Below are positions 3,811 to 63,585 of a stretch of DNA of 64,000 nt, one piece after another (position 1 is the stretch's first letter; each line of letters opens with the position of its first letter). Made by a program: the position numbers and the translations under genes. Where the stretch lies: assembly GCF_001306135.1 (NCBI RefSeq), contig NZ_LGKP01000035.1, forward strand, positions 372,001 through 436,000, in the 5' to 3' direction. Origin of the DNA: Herpetosiphon geysericola (GTDB lineage Bacteria > Chloroflexota > Chloroflexia > Chloroflexales > Herpetosiphonaceae). The notes beneath the pieces are model-generated. The model did no database searches. It was not told where the DNA came from and saw nothing but the letters and a program-made list of their open reading frames with translations.

Positions 3811-4069
3811 CCACGAAGGGCACGAAGGGCACGAAGGACACGAAGGATGGAAACCGCGAAGCACGCGAAGGGCACGAAGGACACGAAGGACGGAAACCGC
3901 GAAGCACGCGAAGAGCGCGAAGGCTGAGTTTTAGCCACGAATTACACGAATTACACGAACAATTATCCGATAGCCCATAGCCTAGCACCTCGTCCCTGAT
4001 CCCCGACCCCTAGCCCCTGAACCTCAACTCCTATGCTCTATGTTCTATGCTCTATGTTCTATGCTCTTA
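3811..4069. repeat. Mosaic short-word repeat island 1
   Basis: Between polA and the VOC gene there are at least ten imperfect copies of the nonamer CACGAAGGG or CGCGAAG(C/G)A (3811-3930), then three CACGAATTA-type units, then an ATAGCCCATAGCC word, a run of CCCTGATCCCCGACCCC type, and five TCTATG(C/T)TC units (4031-4069). The last part forms the final codons and stop of the VOC gene. No reading frame is supported here. Confidence 0.85.
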
Positions 4070-18330: not shown

Positions 18331-19302
18331 TTACAAGCTAGCGAGTTGCTGCATGGCTTGATATTCTTGCTCGGCAATCTGGTTCATCAGCGTGCTTGCT
18401 GCTTGAATTGGCTTTAGATCGCGCTGCTTGCCTGCTTGATCAAGCAAAGCTGCTACTTCCGTCCAGTTTGCGGCAATTGTAGCGAAGCTGGATTCAGCTT
18501 GACGTAATTGCTCGGCATCGATCATCGTTGCAGCCTCGGCCAAGAAATCGCGGTAGAGCTTGCGAAACAGCGAGCCGCCAGTTCCGGCGCGTTCCATCAG
18601 CATTGCCGTGGTGCAAAAATCGTACTCAACATCAGCAGACGCTTCAAACCATGGTTGTAAGGCGGCGCTGGCTTTGTGAATCCCTTTGTAGCTTACGTTG
18701 GTAATTGGCGGGTTGAGATAGGCTTGGGCATTGTTGCGAATTGCTTGGCGCACTGCCTGGGCCAAATCATACTCAGCGCCACGCTTGAGCGTATAGGCCA
18801 GATTTTTCGAGGCCATCGAGCCTTTGGCATTGCGGGCTTGGGCCAAACTTGCTAATGATGTTTGAACTTCGCTGCCCTGTTGTTGGGTATCCACCAAGTA
18901 GGCGTTGTGTTGATCGTAGCCATAGATCGCGGCGTAGTGGCCAGCAAAATGAATTGGGTTGCTGAAATATTCGAGGTAAAAACAATCGAGCTTCAAGCCA
19001 ACCGCTTGGCCTTGATCAAGCCAGCCTTTGACGATTGCCCATGCTTTATTTGGTGAGCTGGTTTCTTGGCGCTCAATCGTTAGGTTGAGATGTCTGACGA
19101 GGTTGTCGGTGAGTTGGTCGGGCTTTATCCTCCCACCGATGAAGGGCATGGGCATCGATTTCATGTGCCAAAAAATAAAACCAAGCCCTTCGCCAAGCCC
19201 AAATAGCAGCGGCTCCGAAAGCTCAATCCCTTGCTGATACAGCAATGTGCCATTGGTGGTTGTCTCACAGTGTTGGCCGATGAATGGTTTGATTGCCAGC
19301 AT
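18331..19302 (-). CDS. BtrH N-terminal domain / DUF4872 protein
   Basis: 323 residues that match, as far as I recall, the BtrH-like family (cysteine-protease-like N-terminal fold, PF14399, plus DUF4872). The opening FIGQHCETTTNGTLLYQQG holds a candidate nucleophile Cys. HFAGHYAAIYGYDQHNAYLVDT supplies the matching His and Asp region. BtrH itself transfers an acyl group from a carrier protein in butirosin synthesis; other members are of unknown role. No carrier protein or biosynthetic gene lies beside it. GAGGA 5 bases before the ATG supports the start. It is flanked on both sides by copies of the two-hairpin repeat, suggesting a region open to rearrangement. Confidence 0.7.
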   Translation of the reverse strand: MLAIKPFIGQHCETTTNGTLLYQQGIELSEPLLFGLGEGLGFIFWHMKSMPMPFIGGRIKPDQLTDNLVRHLNLTIERQETSSPNKAWAIVKGWLDQGQAVGLKLDCFYLEYFSNPIHFAGHYAAIYGYDQHNAYLVDTQQQGSEVQTSLASLAQARNAKGSMASKNLAYTLKRGAEYDLAQAVRQAIRNNAQAYLNPPITNVSYKGIHKASAALQPWFEASADVEYDFCTTAMLMERAGTGGSLFRKLYRDFLAEAATMIDAEQLRQAESSFATIAANWTEVAALLDQAGKQRDLKPIQAASTLMNQIAEQEYQAMQQLASL

Positions 19303-19542: not shown

Positions 19543-21045
19543 TTAGGCGGCTTTGCCAAGCATACTACCCAATTCACGCAGCTTTTGCGGCGTAAATAGG
19601 CCAAGATTTGGCACATACTGGGCTGTACCTTCGCGCCAGCCACGCAGCGCCAAGCCAATTTCTACCGCGTTGCGACACTCCAAAATTGCCAAAAGCTCGG
19701 CTTCGGCCACAAAGCCCGCTTGATCAAAGCGCAACGCCAAGCGGCTCCAGCGATCTGCTGGCTGTTGGGCTGGGGCAAGTTGTTCGAGTTGCGCCAACAC
19801 TGCCTGCATATCGGGCGTAGTTTGGTAAATCACTTTGGCAACTTGGCAATTGCGCAACAGGCTTTGATAGCTTTTCGCCACTACAACCAAAACTTTGGGT
19901 TGGCCGACCAAGCGTTGCGCCAAACTCGCTGCCATAGCTTCGGTAGCAGGCACAAAGATCGGAATCCGCTCGCTGCCACGTTGGGCAATAAAATCGGGTA
20001 CTAACAAGCGATGAGCCAAGCTAAATGGCACTGGGTCGCGGCGAATCCGCCAACCTGCATTGTTGCCTTTGCTCACGAAGCGGCTCCAAGCTTGGCTAAA
20101 TTGCTGTTCGAGCGTAGTTTCCCAGCTATCGCCGCTGGTGTTATGTTGATAGCGAGCTGTGCCACCAAGTACGGTTAACTCGCGCTTCGCAAGCTTAACC
20201 AAACTATTTTTGCCCTGCATATGCACCTGAATCAGGCCTTCGCTGGCAGTGTTGGGATGCGCCGCCAGCAAGCGCAACGCACAGCGGGCAATCCGCCGAC
20301 CAGTGCGGGTCCAATTGCCAAGCGCATCTTTGGCTCCATGCAAGGTCAACATTACGAACGTAGCCATACAATCTTCAGGCTCGCTTAATTCATAACGTAG
20401 ATTATAACGCTGGGCCAAGTTATGGGCAGAAACTGCCAAGGCATTAATATCGCCATCAAGCCGTAATTGCAGTGAGCGGCAATTGCGCAAGCCAGTTTCC
20501 AGCGAATGAAAATTGTATAGCGCCACAATCGCGCTTGGCTCTGGGCGTTCGGCGCTGCGCACCAACAAGGCTTCTTGCTCATCATCAAGGTAGAGCACCC
20601 GCTCAAATTGGCTGGCGGTTAGCCCCACCTCGCTAGCTAGTTGGTTGACTGCAGGCCAACGTTCGCTGGGCAAAATGAAGCCAGTGCTTTGATTGGCATA
20701 GGCATACAGCAAGGCTCGAAAATCGGCTGAATTGCGCAAACCACGTTCGGCCAATTGTTGGTACGTAGTTTGATCGAGCACTTCGGCGATTTGGGGCTGA
20801 TGCCAGCGATAGGTTTGGCGTAAACATGCCACCAAGCCACGCGCCAACTTGGGATCGCCGAAAAACTCCAGCAAGGTGGCGGCTTCAAATTCGCGCCGTG
20901 CCCGCCCAAGCATCTGCTCGTAGTAGCCAATCGCATACTCAATCGCGGCCAAGTAGCGATCATCACGCAATTGGTGCGGGTAGAGTTGGCGGCCAAGCTC
21001 GCCATTGCGGCTGGTATATTTGAAATCGGCTGGTGTAAATGACAT
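19543..21045 (-). CDS. DUF790 protein, Bax1-like putative nuclease
   Basis: 500 residues that resemble DUF790 (PF05626), the family of archaeal Bax1, the nuclease partner of XPB helicase. The N-terminus starts ADFKYTSRNGELGRQLYPHQL. The C-terminal nuclease-like region contains DSWETTLEQQF and LLVPDFIAQRGSERIPIF (Asp near residue 350). In the archaeal family the PDF is followed by an EIVGFWTPEYL-like stretch carrying a catalytic Glu and Lys; here that stretch reads IPIFVPATEAMA, so the active site may be eroded. The gene stands 218 bases downstream of the XPB-like helicase gene, on the same strand, which strengthens the assignment. A repeat island separates the two. Confidence 0.72.
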   Translation of the reverse strand: MSFTPADFKYTSRNGELGRQLYPHQLRDDRYLAAIEYAIGYYEQMLGRARREFEAATLLEFFGDPKLARGLVACLRQTYRWHQPQIAEVLDQTTYQQLAERGLRNSADFRALLYAYANQSTGFILPSERWPAVNQLASEVGLTASQFERVLYLDDEQEALLVRSAERPEPSAIVALYNFHSLETGLRNCRSLQLRLDGDINALAVSAHNLAQRYNLRYELSEPEDCMATFVMLTLHGAKDALGNWTRTGRRIARCALRLLAAHPNTASEGLIQVHMQGKNSLVKLAKRELTVLGGTARYQHNTSGDSWETTLEQQFSQAWSRFVSKGNNAGWRIRRDPVPFSLAHRLLVPDFIAQRGSERIPIFVPATEAMAASLAQRLVGQPKVLVVVAKSYQSLLRNCQVAKVIYQTTPDMQAVLAQLEQLAPAQQPADRWSRLALRFDQAGFVAEAELLAILECRNAVEIGLALRGWREGTAQYVPNLGLFTPQKLRELGSMLGKAA

Positions 21046-21077
21046 AATTATTCCAATGCTACAAAGGCTAAGCTGAT

Positions 21078-21263
21078 TGATCCACGAAGAACACGAAGGG
21101 CACGAAGGGCTATAACCGCTAAGGACGCGAAGATCGCGAAGGTTTCTCTTTCCAAAGCCTTACGCTTCATCCCTCATCCCTCATCCTTCGCTACTCTGCG
21201 CCTCTGCGTTAAATCCTAATCCCTGATCGTGAGCCTTCATCCCTCATAATTCATCCTTCATCC
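21078..21263. repeat. Mosaic short-word repeat island 3
   Basis: Between the helicase and Bax1-like genes: CACGAAGAA, CACGAAGGG and CGCGAAG units (21081-21142), CTTCATCCCTCATCC words (21166 and 21236), a CTGCGCCTCTGCGTT word (21196) and CCTAATCCCTGATC words. The last CATCCTT unit abuts the stop codon of the helicase gene. Confidence 0.8.
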
Positions 21264-22571
21264 TTAACTATTGCTCTGCTGATTATGCGCGGCCACAGCT
21301 TTTTTGCGGCGGCGCGCAGTCTGAACTTCGCTGGTGTTGCGGGTAACCAACTCGTAGAGCAAGGCTTCATCGGGTTTTTTGCGCAATACCCGCCCTAAGC
21401 GCTGAATATATTCGCGGGCAGTGGCTGAACCGCTGACCACAATCGCCACGTTGGCATCAGGCACATCAACGCCCTCGTTGAGCACCCGACCCGTGACCAA
21501 CTTAGAATAGCGTCCAGACCGAAAGCCATCCAAAATCGATTTACGTTCATCAGCCGCCGTGCGATAGGTAATGCTGGGGATGGCAAACTGACGGCTGATC
21601 GTGTTGACCAAGGTGTTGTATTCAGAAAAGATAATGACTTTATCGTTGGGATGCTGGCTGAGCAATTGGCCAACATGCTCAAGCTTTTTCTCGGCATTGA
21701 GCGCAATCATGCGCGCTTGATGCTGCGCTTGTAAGGCATTGCGGGCTTGGGGATCGCTGCCAGAGCGCCGAATCAATTCGCCAAAGAAATCACCACCGCT
21801 AGCCAATTTATGCCGATGCTTGGCCAAAAACCAGCGCCATGTGGTCATTAAGGTTTCGTAGCGCACTAATTCATCGGCGGTCAGATCGACTAAAATTCGT
21901 TTTTCGCGGAATTTGGCAATATGGCCTTCTTCGGCTAAGTCGTTGGGTGCACGCCGATAGACGACCTTGCCAACCAAGCGATCGAGTGCTGAATGCGCGC
22001 CATCGCTGCGTTCGGGCGTGGCAGTTAAGCCCAAGCGATAGGGCGTGCGGCTGCGTAGGGCAATTGTGCTATAGGCAGGTGAAGGCAAATGATGCACTTC
22101 ATCGCAAATGAGCAAACCCAAATTTTCCAGCGGGGCATCGGGCATGGCCGCCGAAGCATAGGTGATGACAGTGATTGGCCGCCATTCGCGCTGGCCATCT
22201 CCAACCACGCCCACAAATTTGGGATCGAGCGCCAAGGTTTGGATCACGGTGTCGCGCCATTGGTAGAGCAATTCAATCGTGGGCACGACGATCAGGGTGC
22301 GCAAGCCTAGCTTGGCAATTGCCAACATCGCGGTGATCGTTTTGCCAGCACCGGTTGGCAGCACAATCACCCCACGCCCTTCGTTGGCCGTCCAAGCAGC
22401 GACAGCCTCGGTTTGGTAGGGACGCGGGGCGAATTGCAATTTGGCTTTGAAGCCGCCCTGCAAACTGACATCAACTTCGGGCAAATCCTCATCTGGTTCG
22501 TCAAGCAGGCTTGCATCAAGCAAACTTGCCTCGTCGAGCAGCCATTCTTCTTGGGTGGCAGTTCGAGTCAT
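21264..22571 (-). CDS. XPB-like DEAD/DEAH-box helicase
   Basis: 435 residues of superfamily 2. After an acidic N-terminal tail come FAPRPYQTEAVAAW, Walker A LPTGAGKT (71-78), DEVHH (motif II, near 157), GLTATPERSDGAH (motif III region), and the C-terminal motifs IIFSEYN, GRVLNEGVDVPDANVAIV and QRLGRVLRKKPDEA. The two RecA cores and the short spacing are those of XPB/RAD25-type helicases, which open DNA at lesions. The start at 22571 follows AGGAGG that overlaps the stop codon of the upstream HhH gene, so the two are translationally coupled. The Bax1-like gene follows. Together they suggest an archaeal-type nucleotide-excision module; a type I or BREX-related helicase is less likely. Confidence 0.85.
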   Translation of the reverse strand: MTRTATQEEWLLDEASLLDASLLDEPDEDLPEVDVSLQGGFKAKLQFAPRPYQTEAVAAWTANEGRGVIVLPTGAGKTITAMLAIAKLGLRTLIVVPTIELLYQWRDTVIQTLALDPKFVGVVGDGQREWRPITVITYASAAMPDAPLENLGLLICDEVHHLPSPAYSTIALRSRTPYRLGLTATPERSDGAHSALDRLVGKVVYRRAPNDLAEEGHIAKFREKRILVDLTADELVRYETLMTTWRWFLAKHRHKLASGGDFFGELIRRSGSDPQARNALQAQHQARMIALNAEKKLEHVGQLLSQHPNDKVIIFSEYNTLVNTISRQFAIPSITYRTAADERKSILDGFRSGRYSKLVTGRVLNEGVDVPDANVAIVVSGSATAREYIQRLGRVLRKKPDEALLYELVTRNTSEVQTARRRKKAVAAHNQQSNS

Positions 22572-22579
22572 GCATCCTC

Positions 22580-23125
22580 CTAGGCGGCTTTTTGCCCATA
22601 CTCCCATAAGGTTGGTTGGGTATAGATGATGTTGCTGCTGCGAGCGCTGTGGGCTGCATTGGCTGGTGGTGGTGGATCGTCGGGAAACATGTTCGAAACA
22701 ATTAGGTCGGCGCGTTGCGGGCCTACGCCCCAAATTGCGGTCAGCCGTTGGTAGGCTGCTTCGCGCAACAAGGCCGAAAGCTCAAGCTCGCCCAGTTCTT
22801 GGCTGATGCGTTCGGCCAAAATTGGCCCAATGCCAGCAATTTTGAGCAAGCGTTGTTGGCTCACTGGCAGCAAGGCACACAGATCTTCGTAGAAATCTAA
22901 TTGGCCTTGGGCTGCAAGCACCGTGATTTTGCGGGTGAGGCTGGCCCCAAGTTTGTTGAGCCCTAACGGCTTGCCTGCTAAAGCGCGTTCGGTGAGGGAA
23001 TGGCGTAGGCGGAGAATTGCCCGCGCAACTTCGCCATAGCGCCGCACTCGATAGGGATTGGCGTTTTGACGCTTGAGCAGCGTGGCAATATTAAACAGAA
23101 TTTGGGCAATTGCGCGATTATTCAT
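22580..23125 (-). CDS. Helix-hairpin-helix protein, PolX N-terminal-like
   Basis: 181 residues. The first 90 (AIAQILFNIATLLKRQNANPYRVRRYGEVARAI) resemble the 8-kDa lyase-like N-terminal domain of family X polymerases. Two HhH motifs follow: IAGIGPILAERI (about 96-107) and IWGVGPQRADLI (131-142). No nucleotidyltransferase or PHP domain is present, so this is a stand-alone DNA-binding protein. The ATG at 23125 follows GGTGA; a GTG at 23137 is possible. It is the first gene of the set, with a good promoter upstream, and is only 8 bases from the helicase start. Its likely role is DNA or lesion binding for the helicase. Confidence 0.75.
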   Translation of the reverse strand: MNNRAIAQILFNIATLLKRQNANPYRVRRYGEVARAILRLRHSLTERALAGKPLGLNKLGASLTRKITVLAAQGQLDFYEDLCALLPVSQQRLLKIAGIGPILAERISQELGELELSALLREAAYQRLTAIWGVGPQRADLIVSNMFPDDPPPPANAAHSARSSNIIYTQPTLWEYGQKAA

Positions 23126-23615: not shown

Positions 23616-26600
23616 CTACTTAATCACTGCGCCTAAATTGAGCAAACTTGCTTGTTCTGCTGGATTGAGGCCAGTTGCTTGCTTGATGCTAAGGCCTTGA
23701 TAGGGGTGGTCGCCATGCAGCCGTTTGCGCAATTTGCCGGTGGCTAAATCCCAAATCGTAATCGTACCTTGCTGATCGCCAGTGATTAACAGTTGGCTAT
23801 CAGCGCTCAGGTACGCACTATCCAAGGCTGCCAGATGCTCAAAACGCTGGACTATTTGGCGGTTCTGCCAATCCCAAATTAGTGCCAACGAACCAGCTAC
23901 AATCACAATCCAACGCCCATCCGCCGACCATTGCACTTTTTTGAGTAAGCCTGGTTTATGCAAGGCGATAATCTCATATTGCTCGGTGCTGAGATCCCAA
24001 ATTCGTACCTGTTGGTCTGTTGCCGCACTAACAATATGGCGTTGATTGGGGCTAAAGCTCAGGCTGATGATGCTGGCACTATGGCCCGCCAATAAGCCAA
24101 CACAACTGTGTTCGTTAATGCCCCAAATACGAATTGTCTGGTCGGCGCTGCCAGTCGCCAACAAATTGCCGTTGTGGCTCCAGGCCAAGGTTGTTACCAA
24201 ATCATCGTGGCAAGCAAAAACATGGCTAATGTGGCCATGCGGCAGCGACCAAATATGCACCGTGTGATCTTCGCTGCAACTGGCGAGCATGCTGCCATCG
24301 GGCCGAAAGGCCAACGCCCGAATTAAGCCCTGATGGCCAGTTAAAATCATGGTCAATTGCAAGCGCTGACAATCCCAAATTTGAATCAGCTGCTCTTTGC
24401 TCAGTGCCAAACTGTGGCTGGCTTGATGATAGGCCAATTCGCGCCCATTATTGGTTTCTGGTGGTAAATTGAGGTGATAATATGGCTCAGTTAGTTGCCA
24501 TAATGTGACAGCTTGCGCTTCGCTGGAACTAAACAATAAAGCGTTATTTGGGCTTAATGCGAGGCTGCGCACCCCGCCGCGATAGCCTTGCAGCGTGTGA
24601 ATTAAGCGCCCGCTGGCTTGCTCCCAAATTCGCAGGCTTTGATCGCTGCTCACCGAATAGAGCCGCGCGCCATCGCGACTGTAGCGCAACGCCCGCACCC
24701 AATGCTGATGCCCATACAACATATGGGTCAAATTGGCGCTTTGGACTTGCCAAACCCGAATACATTGATCGATGCCAGCAGTAGCCAAATTGGCGCCATC
24801 AGGGCTAAATTGCAAATCAAACACGCGATCATCGTTGGCTAGGCTGGTGATTAACTGATTATCCTGAAGATCCCACAGATAGACATCGCCATCAAGCCCA
24901 GTGCCAGCTAAAATTGTGGTATCAGGGCTGAATGCCAAGAGCTGAATTGGCTCGTGATGAGTCGTTAACGTGCTTTGATAGCGCAAATGCTGTCCATGCC
25001 AGAGCTTGATTTGGCGATCAATCCCAGCGGTTGCCAAAAGCTGACCATCGGCGCTCAATTGAATGCTGCTGAGGCCGCCACTATGCACATTGATTGTTTG
25101 CAAACATTTGCCACTCAGCCGATCCCACACCCGCAACTCACCATCGCTGCTGGCGCTCATCAGCTGCTGCGATTGCGGCGCAACCACCACGCCAATTACT
25201 GGCTGGGTGTGGCCAACGAACATCCGTGGATTGTGGCCTTGGCTGGCTTCCCACAAGCGAATGATGCCATCGTTGCCAGCGCTAATGAGATAGCGGCCAT
25301 CGCTGCTAAAACTCAGCGTGCGCACGCCATCGTGGTTGCTTGGCACATGCCAGAGTTTGCGCAGATCCAAGCTTTGCCAAACGATTAACTCATCATCGGC
25401 GGTAGCGACGGCCAAAAACCGATCTGCGGGATCGCGGGCGAGGGCAATTAATGGGCCAAATTGTTCGCTAAACACCGTGCGCGAAAGGTCGCTATAGCTC
25501 AAATCGAGCTGTTTGGGCGTGAGGCCGCGCAGATTAGCTTGCCACAATGGTTTATGCCGAAAATCAAATTGGCTAAGATCGGCCTTGAGTTCAACCAGCA
25601 AATTAAAAATATTGCCTGGCGCATAGCCCATTTCCAACGTACTCAACCCTTGCATCGTTTGCAGCAATTGACGCAGGGTCGTCAACAAGCGTTCTTGGCC
25701 AAGCTCGACAAAAATTCGGTGCAGCAATGGCCGCAAAATGGCCCGACTTTGGTGCTCGCGAATGCTATCGAGGCTATTGGCTTTAATTAGCGCGTGGCGA
25801 TAGAGCAACCCTTGGGTTCCATCAAGCAATTCTTGGGCAATCTGGTCGATCAAGCGGTCGGTGGTGTATTCGAGCACTACGTTATGCAGCATAAACCCAT
25901 CTTGGTGGCGCTCAACGAGTGAGCGGCGCAGCAACGATTCAAGGGTTTCGAGCAGCATATGTTGATATTTCGAGCGCACCAAATCGTGCTTCAGTTCAGC
26001 CAATTTGACGGTGTGGCGTTCGATTGCTAGCCAATACAATAATTCTTGTTCTTGGTCGGATAAACGCTCGAATTGCTGGGCTAAGATTGTGCGCACATCG
26101 CCAAAAATCAGCTCTTCGTGCTGCAAAAACTCGGCAATTTGGCCAAAAAACATGGTTTTGATCACTTGGGCAACCAATTTTAAGGCCAACGGATTGCCAG
26201 TGTAATGCTTGATTAGTTCCTGCCAGAGTTGCGGCGTACCATACAACTCCTGATTATCGAGCAACATTTGAGCATCATCGCGGATCAAACCAGTGAGCAC
26301 CATTGAGCGGGTGTGTACACCTTCGAGCCGATTGAACTCATAGGGTTTTTCGCGGCTGGTCACAATCAAACAGCTTTCGTGGGCACGTTCGCTAATTGCC
26401 TGAAACAGTTGGGCATATTGCTCGTAGCCCTCGCGATAGCGCCCAGCTGGATAATTGGGCTGCAAAATTGCCTCAATATTATCGAGAATCAATAGGCAGC
26501 GAGTGGTGCGCAAATAATCAATCAAGACACTTAAACGCTGCTCAAATTGGGCGGGATAGGCCGAATTGGGGCTGGGAATAATCCGATGTAGGCATTCCAA

Positions 26601-27245
26601 GAGAAAATCATTTGCATGTTGGCCTTGTTGCAACGAACGCCAAACAAGCACTTTAAAATCATCTTGGGCTTGTTGGGCAACCTTGGTTGCAAGGCTGGTT
26701 TTGCCCATGCCGCCCAGCCCAATAATTGCCACCAAGCGGCAACGGTCAAGCTGCAGCCACTTCACCAAGGTCGCAGTTTCATCCTCGCGGCCAACAAAAT
26801 TTTGCACATCGGGCGCATCGCCCCAATCGTGCAACACGCCCATCAACGGCCCAGTTTTGGCTTGCTCCTGCTTTTGTTGCTGCACCTCGGCCAAGTAGGC
26901 GTTGGCCAGTTGTTGCAAGGCCTGCCAAGTTGCCAGTGGAGCGAAATCAATTGCATACTCGCTGAGAGCGAACTGAATCGTTGCCAACAACTGCTGTTCA
27001 GCCAAGCCCCGCTGGTAGGGCGGTAAATCCAACTGATCGATCACCAGTTGGGCGAGGGCTGCGATATAGCCTAGTGGGCATAAAATTTGATCATTTTCAT
27101 AGCGCATAATCGTGGTATGCGCCAGCCCAAAATGGCGGGCAGCCCGATTTTTTGAGCGAAAAACCCATGAACGCAAATCGCCCAGAAATGCGCCAAGCCC
27201 TTCGGTTGCATGAAAAACAGGCAACGATAAAACAGCGTTTGTCAT
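23616..27245 (-). CDS. STAND ATPase: HTH, NB-ARC and 14 WD40 repeats
   Basis: 1209 residues. Residues 1-90 form an XRE-like helix-turn-helix (SKNRAARHFGLAHTTIMRYEND). A linker DWGDAPDVQNFVGRE leads to an NB-ARC NTPase with Walker A GLGGMGKT (176-183) and Walker B CLLILDNIEAIL. A helical arm (about 400-600) follows, then WD40 repeats to the end. I count 14 blade ends (LIVWQS, IRLWEA, LRVWDR, IKLWHG, VYLWDL, IRVWQV, LRIWEQ, VTLWQL, IQIWDC, VHIWSL, IRIWGI, VRIWDL, ALIWDW, ITIWDL), enough for two seven-bladed propellers. Such proteins act as ligand-triggered switches in regulation, programmed death or phage defence; the role here is unknown. The start has GAGG 6 bases upstream. Confidence 0.9.
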   Translation of the reverse strand: MTNAVLSLPVFHATEGLGAFLGDLRSWVFRSKNRAARHFGLAHTTIMRYENDQILCPLGYIAALAQLVIDQLDLPPYQRGLAEQQLLATIQFALSEYAIDFAPLATWQALQQLANAYLAEVQQQKQEQAKTGPLMGVLHDWGDAPDVQNFVGREDETATLVKWLQLDRCRLVAIIGLGGMGKTSLATKVAQQAQDDFKVLVWRSLQQGQHANDFLLECLHRIIPSPNSAYPAQFEQRLSVLIDYLRTTRCLLILDNIEAILQPNYPAGRYREGYEQYAQLFQAISERAHESCLIVTSREKPYEFNRLEGVHTRSMVLTGLIRDDAQMLLDNQELYGTPQLWQELIKHYTGNPLALKLVAQVIKTMFFGQIAEFLQHEELIFGDVRTILAQQFERLSDQEQELLYWLAIERHTVKLAELKHDLVRSKYQHMLLETLESLLRRSLVERHQDGFMLHNVVLEYTTDRLIDQIAQELLDGTQGLLYRHALIKANSLDSIREHQSRAILRPLLHRIFVELGQERLLTTLRQLLQTMQGLSTLEMGYAPGNIFNLLVELKADLSQFDFRHKPLWQANLRGLTPKQLDLSYSDLSRTVFSEQFGPLIALARDPADRFLAVATADDELIVWQSLDLRKLWHVPSNHDGVRTLSFSSDGRYLISAGNDGIIRLWEASQGHNPRMFVGHTQPVIGVVVAPQSQQLMSASSDGELRVWDRLSGKCLQTINVHSGGLSSIQLSADGQLLATAGIDRQIKLWHGQHLRYQSTLTTHHEPIQLLAFSPDTTILAGTGLDGDVYLWDLQDNQLITSLANDDRVFDLQFSPDGANLATAGIDQCIRVWQVQSANLTHMLYGHQHWVRALRYSRDGARLYSVSSDQSLRIWEQASGRLIHTLQGYRGGVRSLALSPNNALLFSSSEAQAVTLWQLTEPYYHLNLPPETNNGRELAYHQASHSLALSKEQLIQIWDCQRLQLTMILTGHQGLIRALAFRPDGSMLASCSEDHTVHIWSLPHGHISHVFACHDDLVTTLAWSHNGNLLATGSADQTIRIWGINEHSCVGLLAGHSASIISLSFSPNQRHIVSAATDQQVRIWDLSTEQYEIIALHKPGLLKKVQWSADGRWIVIVAGSLALIWDWQNRQIVQRFEHLAALDSAYLSADSQLLITGDQQGTITIWDLATGKLRKRLHGDHPYQGLSIKQATGLNPAEQASLLNLGAVIK

Positions 27246-27305
27246 GACAAACCTCATTCTGCGCTGGAAAAAATATCAAGCTCGGTAGTAACGAATTATG
27301 CCTGA

Positions 27306-27410: not shown

Positions 27411-27842
27411 TAATCCACGAAGCGCACGAAGAGCACGAAGGGTCAGGAACCGCGAAGAGCGCGAAGCGCACGAAGGGGGAATAGAACCATACTCACAATC
27501 CACGGAGAAACATGAGGGGGTGCTGGGGGATGAAAACCCCGGCGTTTCCCTCCAGCGGAGGGACGGAAGGGAGGAGAAATGATGATGAGGTGAAAATCAA
27601 AAATCAGAAGTCAGAAGTCAAAATAGGAATCAGGATGACATTTTTAACGCAGCGGCGCAGAGGAACCGATGGCTATGGGCTATTGGCTTTGGGCTGGCGA
27701 GAGCATAATCCTAAAAATCTGTGCCAATCTGTGGCCAACGAAAAGGATGAGGGATGAAAGATCAAAAATCACTAACCCATAGCCCAAAGCCTATAGCCAT
27801 GCTTCGTGCAATTCGTGACTAAAAAATAGCCTTCGTGGGCTA
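27411..27842. repeat. Mosaic short-word repeat island 4
   Basis: The 926-base gap between the STAND ATPase and coxB is filled mostly with repeat words. They include CACGAAG(C/A)GC and CGCGAAGAG units (27413-27478), a two-hairpin repeat (27514-27576), AATCAAAAATCAGAAGTCAGAAG words (27597-27620), a GCAGCGGCGCAGAGG word, CTATGGGCTATTGGC and CCCATAGCCCAAAGCC words, a GAGGGATGAAAGATC word, and inverted CTTCGTGCAATTCGTG units. No gene is supported. Confidence 0.8.
27514..27576 (+). repeat. Dispersed two-hairpin repeat, copy 3
   Basis: GCTGGGG/CCCCGGC-type first hairpin, then CCCTCC-AGC-GGAGGG and GACGGAAGGGAGG. The second stem differs from copy 2 at a paired position on both sides (G-C to T-A). 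Confidence 0.75.
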
Positions 27843-36631: not shown

Positions 36632-36757
36632 TTTTAACCGCGAAGAGCGCGAAGAACGCTAAGCAATGTCAATATCTATATCCTTCGTGCTCTTCGTGGT
36701 TAACAATAATTTGGATTTGATCCTTGTCCTTTATGTTCTATGCTCTATGCTCTTTTG
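36632..36757. repeat. Mosaic short-word repeat island 5
   Basis: AACCGCGAAGAGCGCGAAG (36635-36653) is followed by its degenerate complement CTTCGTGCTCTTCGTGG (36683-36699), so the unit occurs as an inverted pair able to form a hairpin. TTATGTTCTATGCTCTATG words follow. Confidence 0.8.
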
Positions 36758-53854: not shown

Positions 53855-54050
53855 GATCCACGAAGAGCACGAAGGACACGAAGGGCTGAAACCGCGAAGA
53901 ACGCGAAGAGCACGAACATGGGCTATTGGCTATTGGATGTTCCAACTCATCCCCGATAGCCCAAAGCCTATAGCCTATAGCCATCTCTTCTTTGCGCTAA
54001 ATCCCAATTTCCGACCCCCGATCCCCGACCCCTGACCACTAGCTCCTACC
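53855..54050. repeat. Mosaic short-word repeat island 8
   Basis: CACGAAGAG/CACGAAGGA and CGCGAAGAA units (53857-53918), GGGCTATTGGCTATTGG and CCCAAAGCCTATAGCC words, a TTTGCGCTAAATCCC word and CCCGATCCCCGACCCC-type runs (54008-54035) upstream of the dehydrogenase. The 835-base gap 53303-54137 otherwise holds the array and direct repeat listed above and no gene. Confidence 0.8.
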
Positions 54051-63307: not shown

Positions 63308-63585
63308 AAGGATAAAGGATAAATTATGAGGGATGAAGGATGAAGACGTATAGACAAAAGGCAAAATGGGGAGCAGAACAGAGAGCAAAGAACATCGAAC
63401 ATAGGAGACAGGGATCAGGGGTTAGTTGTCAGGATTCAGGCAGTTGGCAATCCACGATAATCATAACAATCTGTGGCAAAAAATTTAACCTTCGTGCCCT
63501 TCGTATCCTTCGTGGATCAAAACTGGCCCCTGAATCCTAACCCCTTGTCCCTTCGCGTTCTTCGTACCCTTCGTGGTTTCAGTCG
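63308..63585. repeat. Mosaic short-word repeat island 11
   Basis: GGATAAAGGATAAATTATGA, GAGGGATGAAGGATGAAG (63328), AGAACAGAGAGCAAAGAACA (63377), GATCAGGGGTTAGTTGTC (63412), and inverted CTTCGTGCCCTTCGTATCC (63490) and CTTCGCGTTCTTCGTACCC (63551) words. These fill the 380-base gap before the last gene. Confidence 0.8.

Follow-up and report, generated by a model that had tools for sequence, protein, structure and literature searches.

A bacterial XPB–Bax1 cassette with a lost nuclease acid and an added PolX-like HhH gene: a probable translocase on a pseudonuclease scaffold

What might an XPB helicase do in a bacterium when the Bax1-type protein encoded beside it has lost part of its nuclease site? 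The question is raised by a 64,000-nt stretch of the genome of the soil bacterium Herpetosiphon geysericola (contig NZ_LGKP01000035.1, positions 372,001 to 436,000; the whole stretch is hereafter called the window). Three genes on its minus strand encode a helix-hairpin-helix (HhH) protein, an XPB-type helicase and a DUF790 protein homologous to archaeal Bax1. An earlier note, made from the sequence alone, had read them as an archaeal-style helicase–nuclease excision pair to which the HhH protein adds a DNA-binding subunit. The genes and their order were found as proposed, and DUF790 has the Bax1 fold, but the third catalytic acid of the nuclease is missing from all 36 DUF790 proteins of this kind in which we counted residues. 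The reading we favour, which we hold to be somewhat likelier right than wrong, casts XPB as a translocase on a pseudonuclease scaffold, with a probable tether to the sliding clamp. The features on which the argument turns are the following.

22580-23125, minus strand: HhH gene, 181 aa
within 22580-23125, minus strand: residues 1-151 of the HhH protein, the 8-kDa and HhH part of bacterial PolX
22604-22618, minus strand: Q170-P-T-L-W174, a clamp-binding-like motif in the disordered HhH tail (this and the next feature are read from the sequence)
22571-22582, minus strand: HhH stop codon TAG, sharing bases with AGGAGG, followed by the XPB start codon ATG
21264-22571, minus strand: XPB gene, 435 aa, a superfamily 2 (SF2) helicase
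19543-21045, minus strand: DUF790 gene, 500 aa, a Bax1 homologue
19810-20124, minus strand: nuclease-domain region of DUF790, residues 308-412, with the PD-(D/E)XK fold kept, the third acid lost and a basic R335

The three genes and their products

On the minus strand, AGGAGG lies 4 nt ahead of the XPB ATG and is overlapped by the TAG of the HhH gene, an arrangement that makes translational coupling of the two genes likely. A longer XPB frame would begin at a TTG at 22733, but the ATG preceded by AGGAGG makes the better start. Scans for promoters and terminators gave no more matches than shuffled sequences did.

We refer to DUF790 proteins of the window's kind as type W. They were retrieved at 38 distinct loci, 34 in Chloroflexota and four in a second phylum (NCBI label of centre: Armatimonadetes), with copies of one contig from two collections counted once; six of the 38 are Herpetosiphon loci. 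The type W profile reached at least 360 bits in 21 out of 400 Chloroflexota genomes, a sample that includes the window's own, and type W was present in 4 out of 251 genomes of the second phylum. All six Herpetosiphon genomes searched, the window's own among them, carry the cassette DUF790, and the nearest named DUF790 locus is that of H. giganteus (98% identity). Four type W loci lie too near a contig end for the HhH gene to be judged (L060, L063, L097 and L123). The order HhH, XPB, DUF790 on a single strand was kept in 31 of the 34 judgeable loci, and the three genes are, on this evidence, a conserved unit. The HhH gene was not found in the flank examined of the other three (L094, L100 and L102); in those genomes, the best HhH-profile matches lie elsewhere, in open reading frames (ORFs) of 583-641 aa, which is the size of a full PolX.

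The HhH protein matches the Pfam families HHH_8 (PF14716, E=4e-12) and HHH_5, as well as Thermus thermophilus PolX itself (1.5e-9). Residues 1-151 of its AlphaFold model (mean pLDDT 78) align with the structure of that PolX (3au2; Z 13.2, rmsd 6.5, 148 residues aligned). The N-terminal 8-kDa and HhH part is thus what the protein has in common with bacterial PolX (T. thermophilus, Deinococcus radiodurans). Unlike PolX, however, it is a stand-alone subunit that could not accommodate polymerase or PHP domains: both are absent from the protein, which ends at residue 181, and the single trace is a weak 14-residue DNA_pol_lambd_f match below the cut-off. A separate 604-aa ORF with HHH_8, of full-PolX size, is encoded in the window's genome. 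A 568-aa HhH ORF at locus L082 was considered as a whole PolX and rejected, because it is an over-long frame that ends in the HhH protein. The tail (residues 156-181) is mostly predicted to be disordered, with pLDDT below 50 at 156-172 and 175-181. Among the six Herpetosiphon genomes, to which all the dN/dS values below also refer, the HhH domains have a dN/dS of 0.054.

The helicase aligns with Archaeoglobus fulgidus XPB (2fwr) at E=9e-99, starting at residue 91-92 of the archaeal protein, and matches ResIII (PF04851), Helicase_C and ERCC3_RAD25_C (PF16203). Its helicase core starts near residue 47. Against the NCBIfam equivalog repair_heli_XPB it scores 230 bits (cut-off 610), the best stretch starting at position 168 of the 548 in the model. 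All 32 type W XPB rows, two of them identical, have motifs I, II and VI. At the RED-motif site the window's protein has R-S-D, and these rows and the seven of type L have R-x-D (type L is defined below). The core has a dN/dS of 0.026. The search for the damage-recognition domain (PF18458), which covered five XPBs, gave no match at E<=1 in the window's protein; among the other four, L066 (type C) scored over the cut-off, L073 (type C) scored under it, and L077 (type L) and L082 (type W) gave none. The predicted XPB motor is therefore intact but short.

In these respects the earlier note had judged well: the three same-strand genes at these positions, the AGGAGG overlapping the HhH stop, the family assignments that it proposed to check by HMM search and the likeness of the HhH protein to the PolX N-terminus were all borne out, as was the linkage in relatives, for which it had asked for a count.

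The nuclease site of DUF790 and its intact relatives

The window's DUF790 protein matches PF05626 with E=1.5e-21 and 77.1 bits (gathering cut-off 28.8), and scores 29.3 bits against the NCBIfam Bax1 equivalog, below its threshold of 500. Its AlphaFold model has a mean pLDDT of 85.9, and the best five rows in a comparison with the PDB are all Bax1 (Z 13.2-15.0). The four near-full-length Bax1 alignments have an rmsd of 14.5-15.6 Å, the domains being shifted, and 6p66_B aligns at 4.4 Å over 261 residues. The predicted structure carries the Bax1 fold, so that the note's identification of the protein as a Bax1 homologue stands. Within it, residues 308-421 match PD-(D/E)XK nucleases such as Can2 (Z 7.4, rmsd 3.4, 107 residues aligned).

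The catalytic acids of A. fulgidus Bax1 (AfBax1) are E275, D305 and E318 (PMC7293015; papers are cited here and below on the strength of excerpts, unless otherwise evident). The window has F364 at the position of E318; it keeps D351 as well as a Glu, E313, that lies on the E275 position or one residue off it. We counted residues in 36 of the 38 type W loci, leaving out L047 and L049 and including the three loci without the HhH gene and the four in which it could not be judged. The third acid position is acidic in none of the 36 (35 with a residue, one with a gap). In 33 of them it holds Cys (13), Val (10), Phe (6), Leu (2), Thr or Ala, and in the three others Ser, Ser and the gap (L129), beside which no acid was seen. 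The G-F/Y-W motif that follows the third acid is gone in all 33 rows tallied. The same 33 proteins have Asp (22) or Glu (4) at the second acid and, at the conserved LE position taken as the first acid, Glu in four (Herpetosiphon) and Asp in two. This first alignment is uncertain by one column, because the conserved Glu falls on AfBax1 E274 while the paper names E275, and the case therefore rests on the third acid. Furthermore, one position holds Glu in 9/9 type L proteins and a basic residue, Arg or Lys, in 35/36 of type W.

DUF790 proteins from the same phyla with the nuclease motif intact and no HhH gene found nearby were termed types C and L. Together with L130, an XPB–DUF790 pair of the second phylum that likewise has an intact motif and no HhH gene found, they retain Glu as the third acid in 19 out of 19 cases. 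Type W, of the same DUF790 family, differs from them by the lost nuclease motif and the HhH gene. The third acid is lost as well in L094, L100 and L102, the type W loci where no HhH gene was found, which means that the split follows lineage. XPB was present in the fetched stretch for 16 of the 19 nuclease-intact loci and was not found in the fetched stretches of L065, L074 and L084; at L075 and L085 it lies about 2.9 kb from DUF790. Five genomes (G081, G161, G224, G145 and G097) encode both a type W and a nuclease-intact DUF790, which suggests a division of labour; the second DUF790s of G265 and G237 are outside this count.

In a tree of 47 XPBs, a branch with 100/98 support separated all 32 type W rows from the rest; the seven type L rows were next to them (87/72), and the eight type C rows stood apart (100/99). 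Since the type W XPBs group together, the nuclease site could have been lost through a single change. The disarmed region has nonetheless been kept: its dN/dS of 0.032 indicates strong purifying selection despite the lost acid, alongside 0.072 for the N-terminal, 0.017 for the Cas2-like and 0.104 for the C-terminal domain. Across type W, mean column identity is highest in the N-terminal domain (0.44) and lowest in the nuclease region (0.29).

With the third acid lost, an active PD-(D/E)XK nuclease in type W was rejected. Because the nuclease site was found dismantled in type W, we keep the cassette apart from the helicase–nuclease complex and regard it as a new form of XPB–Bax1. The archaeal style claimed for it thus holds for genes, fold and linkage and fails for the nuclease, and the claim had overlooked two further features, the damage-recognition domain not found in this XPB and the clamp-like tail of the HhH protein.

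Clamp-binding-like motifs in protein tails

Taking the last 45 residues as the tail, we searched for the patterns Q..[LMF][FLWYP] and Q..[LM].[LFV]. One or the other occurs in 15 out of 23 non-redundant HhH tails, against 48 out of 375 tails of other proteins at the same loci and an average of 1.2 out of 23 when the HhH tails are shuffled internally. The cassette partners are nearly devoid of it, with 0/33 type W DUF790 tails and 1/32 type W XPB tails. Besides the QPTLW of the window, examples include QESLF, QESFW, QEPLF, QTRLF, QLPLPL and QLSLF: the Q, the L/F/M and the aromatic or aliphatic end persist while the other residues vary. Only part of this list is canonical, the published clamp-binding consensus being QL[S/D]LF or, in its general form, QxxLF (PMC12309361). 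Exact QLSLF is found in three relatives (L104, L128 and L129), and both HhH genes of the second phylum that were fetched after the pattern had been fixed encode it. A Trp at position 5 has a precedent in mycobacterial ImuB, whose motif is QLPLWG and in which replacing the motif mimics loss of imuB (PMC10421592). In these genomes, two of the four readable Y-family polymerase tails (from 17 loci) contain QLPLW and QLNLW. Y-family polymerases (PF00817) themselves were matched in 8 of the 12 genomes searched and gave no match in G000, G067, G139 and G295, the window's own included.

A second set of tails comes from the nuclease-intact type L. The motif Q..[LMF][FLWYP] lies within the last 12 residues of 16 out of 20 newly fetched type L DUF790s (QGDLW, QPDLW, QEALW and QENLW, for example), with shuffles averaging 0.09. 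This test was set after earlier type L tails had been seen and was applied to sequences fetched later. All 16 carriers belong to one family (f24), and the motif is accordingly evidence for that family and not for type L at large; as the middle residues vary, the QxxLW pattern appears to be under selection within it. In 19 of the 20 the nuclease motif was recognisable; the third acid of L146 was not visible. The short stretches available around them showed no HhH gene.

Two sets of matches were set aside. Those in four of eight type C XPB tails are located in the helicase core, and an FTQTVELL-type stretch near the N-terminus of four HhH proteins (L062, L081, L083 and L115) misfits the published consensus. 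Among type L, the DUF790s of L074, L075, L084, L085, L131-L136, L138-L145, L147 and L148 form one family of about 640-780 aa; its nuclease motif is intact, and its members have a long extension at the C-terminus that ends in QxxLW.

Readings of the cassette and its surroundings

In the reading that we favour, the conserved N-terminal domain of DUF790 would be its contact with XPB, and the nuclease domain, disarmed and more basic, would grip forked or bubble DNA without cutting it. The HhH protein may recognise gapped, nicked or forked DNA, while its tail would tether the complex to the sliding clamp DnaN. XPB could then open or remodel the DNA at the tethered site, and incision would be left to another enzyme such as UvrC; UvrB and UvrC are both encoded in the window's genome. 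A wider proposal, which we put forward tentatively and would not yet rely on, is that at least two bacterial phyla run clamp-tethered XPB machines. One branch would have kept its nuclease, with the hook on the nuclease itself in at least one family. The other would have been disarmed once, its nuclease domain becoming a DNA-gripping scaffold and a PolX-like HhH protein taking over both DNA recognition and the hook.

Several points weigh against a disarmed, clamp-tethered machine. The binding and the activity ascribed to the complex are deduced from sequence. The three type W loci without an HhH gene mean that this gene is dispensable to the cassette. The motif is absent from 8 of the 23 HhH tails (families f43, f41, f63 and f32) and, outside f24, from all four of the newly fetched type L proteins (two families) in the last 12 residues. 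The window's own QPTLW departs from a revised consensus (PMC13254535), with Pro at position 2, which is not aliphatic, and Trp at position 5. Moreover, the tail patterns were first written down after the HhH tails had been seen, and the later-fetched sets, from the second phylum and type L, weigh more for this reason. On the side of the nuclease, the Herpetosiphon DUF790 keeps E313 and D351, the equivalents of two of the three acids, and D154, which corresponds to AfBax1 D133, is Asp in 33/33 type W proteins, making some cutting possible.

The alternative that survives best, although we consider it rather unlikely, is a motor and scaffold with no clamp tether, in which the HhH protein only replaces the damage-recognition domain, and its tail serves another partner or has no role. 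It would fit the lack of a match to that domain in XPB and the patchy distribution of the motif in both HhH and type L tails. It leaves unaccounted for, however, the Q, the L/F/M and the aromatic or aliphatic end kept amid variation, the exact QLSLF of the three relatives and, in one type L family, a motif at the C-terminus of the nuclease itself.

Improbable, in our estimation, is an archaeal-type pair that still excises, with the HhH protein as its DNA-binding subunit and cutting done by a remodelled domain or an N-terminal site. The Bax1 fold, the two acids left in Herpetosiphon and the Asp or Glu at the second position would agree with it. So would D154, since a second nuclease site of which an N-terminal Asp is part has been proposed for AfBax1 (PMC7293015). 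Against it stand the loss of the third acid and of the G-F/Y-W motif. D133 and E135 are also located at the XPB interface in AfBax1 (PMC7293015), and the E135 position is non-acidic in 9/9 nuclease-intact type C proteins; binding to XPB therefore explains why D154 is retained. Most improbable of all is that an XPB-like helicase forms the basis of an anti-phage or mobile-element system here: XPB does score against the PADLOC PbeA and NCBIfam dnd_restrict_1 helicases, but these matches span the shared helicase part, the HhH and DUF790 proteins have no PADLOC match at E<=0.01, and a tblastn search with DUF790, which is present in every Herpetosiphon genome searched, gave no hit among 72,556 records of plasmids and 50,697 of phages.

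The translocase with a pseudonuclease scaffold, to which we now return, can be set beside known systems. Archaeal XPB–Bax1 (A. fulgidus, Sulfolobus tokodaii; PMC7293015, PMC7672443) likewise has an XPB motor beside a DUF790 partner of Bax1 fold, and the Bax1 N-terminal domain that makes the XPB contact there has as its counterpart the best conserved part of DUF790 here. The cassette differs in its lost third acid, in the damage-recognition domain not found, in the added HhH gene and in being bacterial. In ImuB, a catalytically inactive polymerase serves as a clamp-bound adaptor (PMC10421592), which would resemble the cassette in the principle of a dead enzyme turned adaptor. Escherichia coli RecBCD is a helicase–nuclease reported to bind the clamp through the RecB motif QVEMEF (PMC13254535), and would share with the cassette the principle of a clamp-tied motor. 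ImuB and RecBCD show that both principles occur; their proteins are unrelated to those of the cassette, where the clamp-like motif is carried by a different subunit from the dead enzyme.

In a 2005 study, DUF790 was assigned to the PD-(D/E)XK superfamily; it turned up almost exclusively in archaea and cyanobacteria, usually as a neighbour of SSL2-type helicases (PMC1189080). The helicase–DUF790 neighbourhood, bacteria included, is therefore not new. A 2012 paper on Mycobacterium tuberculosis XPB stated, in the part available, that no such XPB–Bax1 complex had been identified in bacteria (PMC3353954). In the open-licence literature searched, we found no description of the HhH gene, of a loss of the nuclease site or of a clamp link, in keeping with the note's remark that no characterised bacterial version with this third gene was known. 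The same literature yielded nothing on Herpetosiphon together with XPB and nothing relevant on Bax1 together with the sliding clamp.

The role of XPB in bacteria is poorly understood. If the wider proposal is true, the cassette would be a minimal XPB machine with no nuclease of its own, opening DNA for nucleases from elsewhere as eukaryotic TFIIH does, and XPB would be coupled to replication or gap repair. A nuclease homologue disarmed and then kept is a natural experiment that separates the motor role of XPB from incision, and the clamp-like tails offer a simple and cheap way to test a link between XPB and the replisome.

Around the cassette, a protein of 1213 aa with many WD40 repeats is encoded directly upstream (23616-27257, minus strand), its N-terminal half resembling, as judged by eye only, a helix-turn-helix and NTPase. 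At 18331-19302 (minus strand), beside gatB, lies a gene for a protein with BtrH_N and DUF4872 domains. One further feature separates two of the cassette genes.

21046-21263: spacer between XPB and DUF790, 218 bp, with one AAGGGCACGAAGG repeat, as given by the sequence

The length of this spacer differs among Herpetosiphon genomes. Together with its one-mismatch forms, AAGGGCACGAAGG occurs in 12 copies in the window, where 0.05 would be expected, at 3816-3889, 21096-21108, 27429-27476, 36682-36694, 53863-53884 and 63489-63501.

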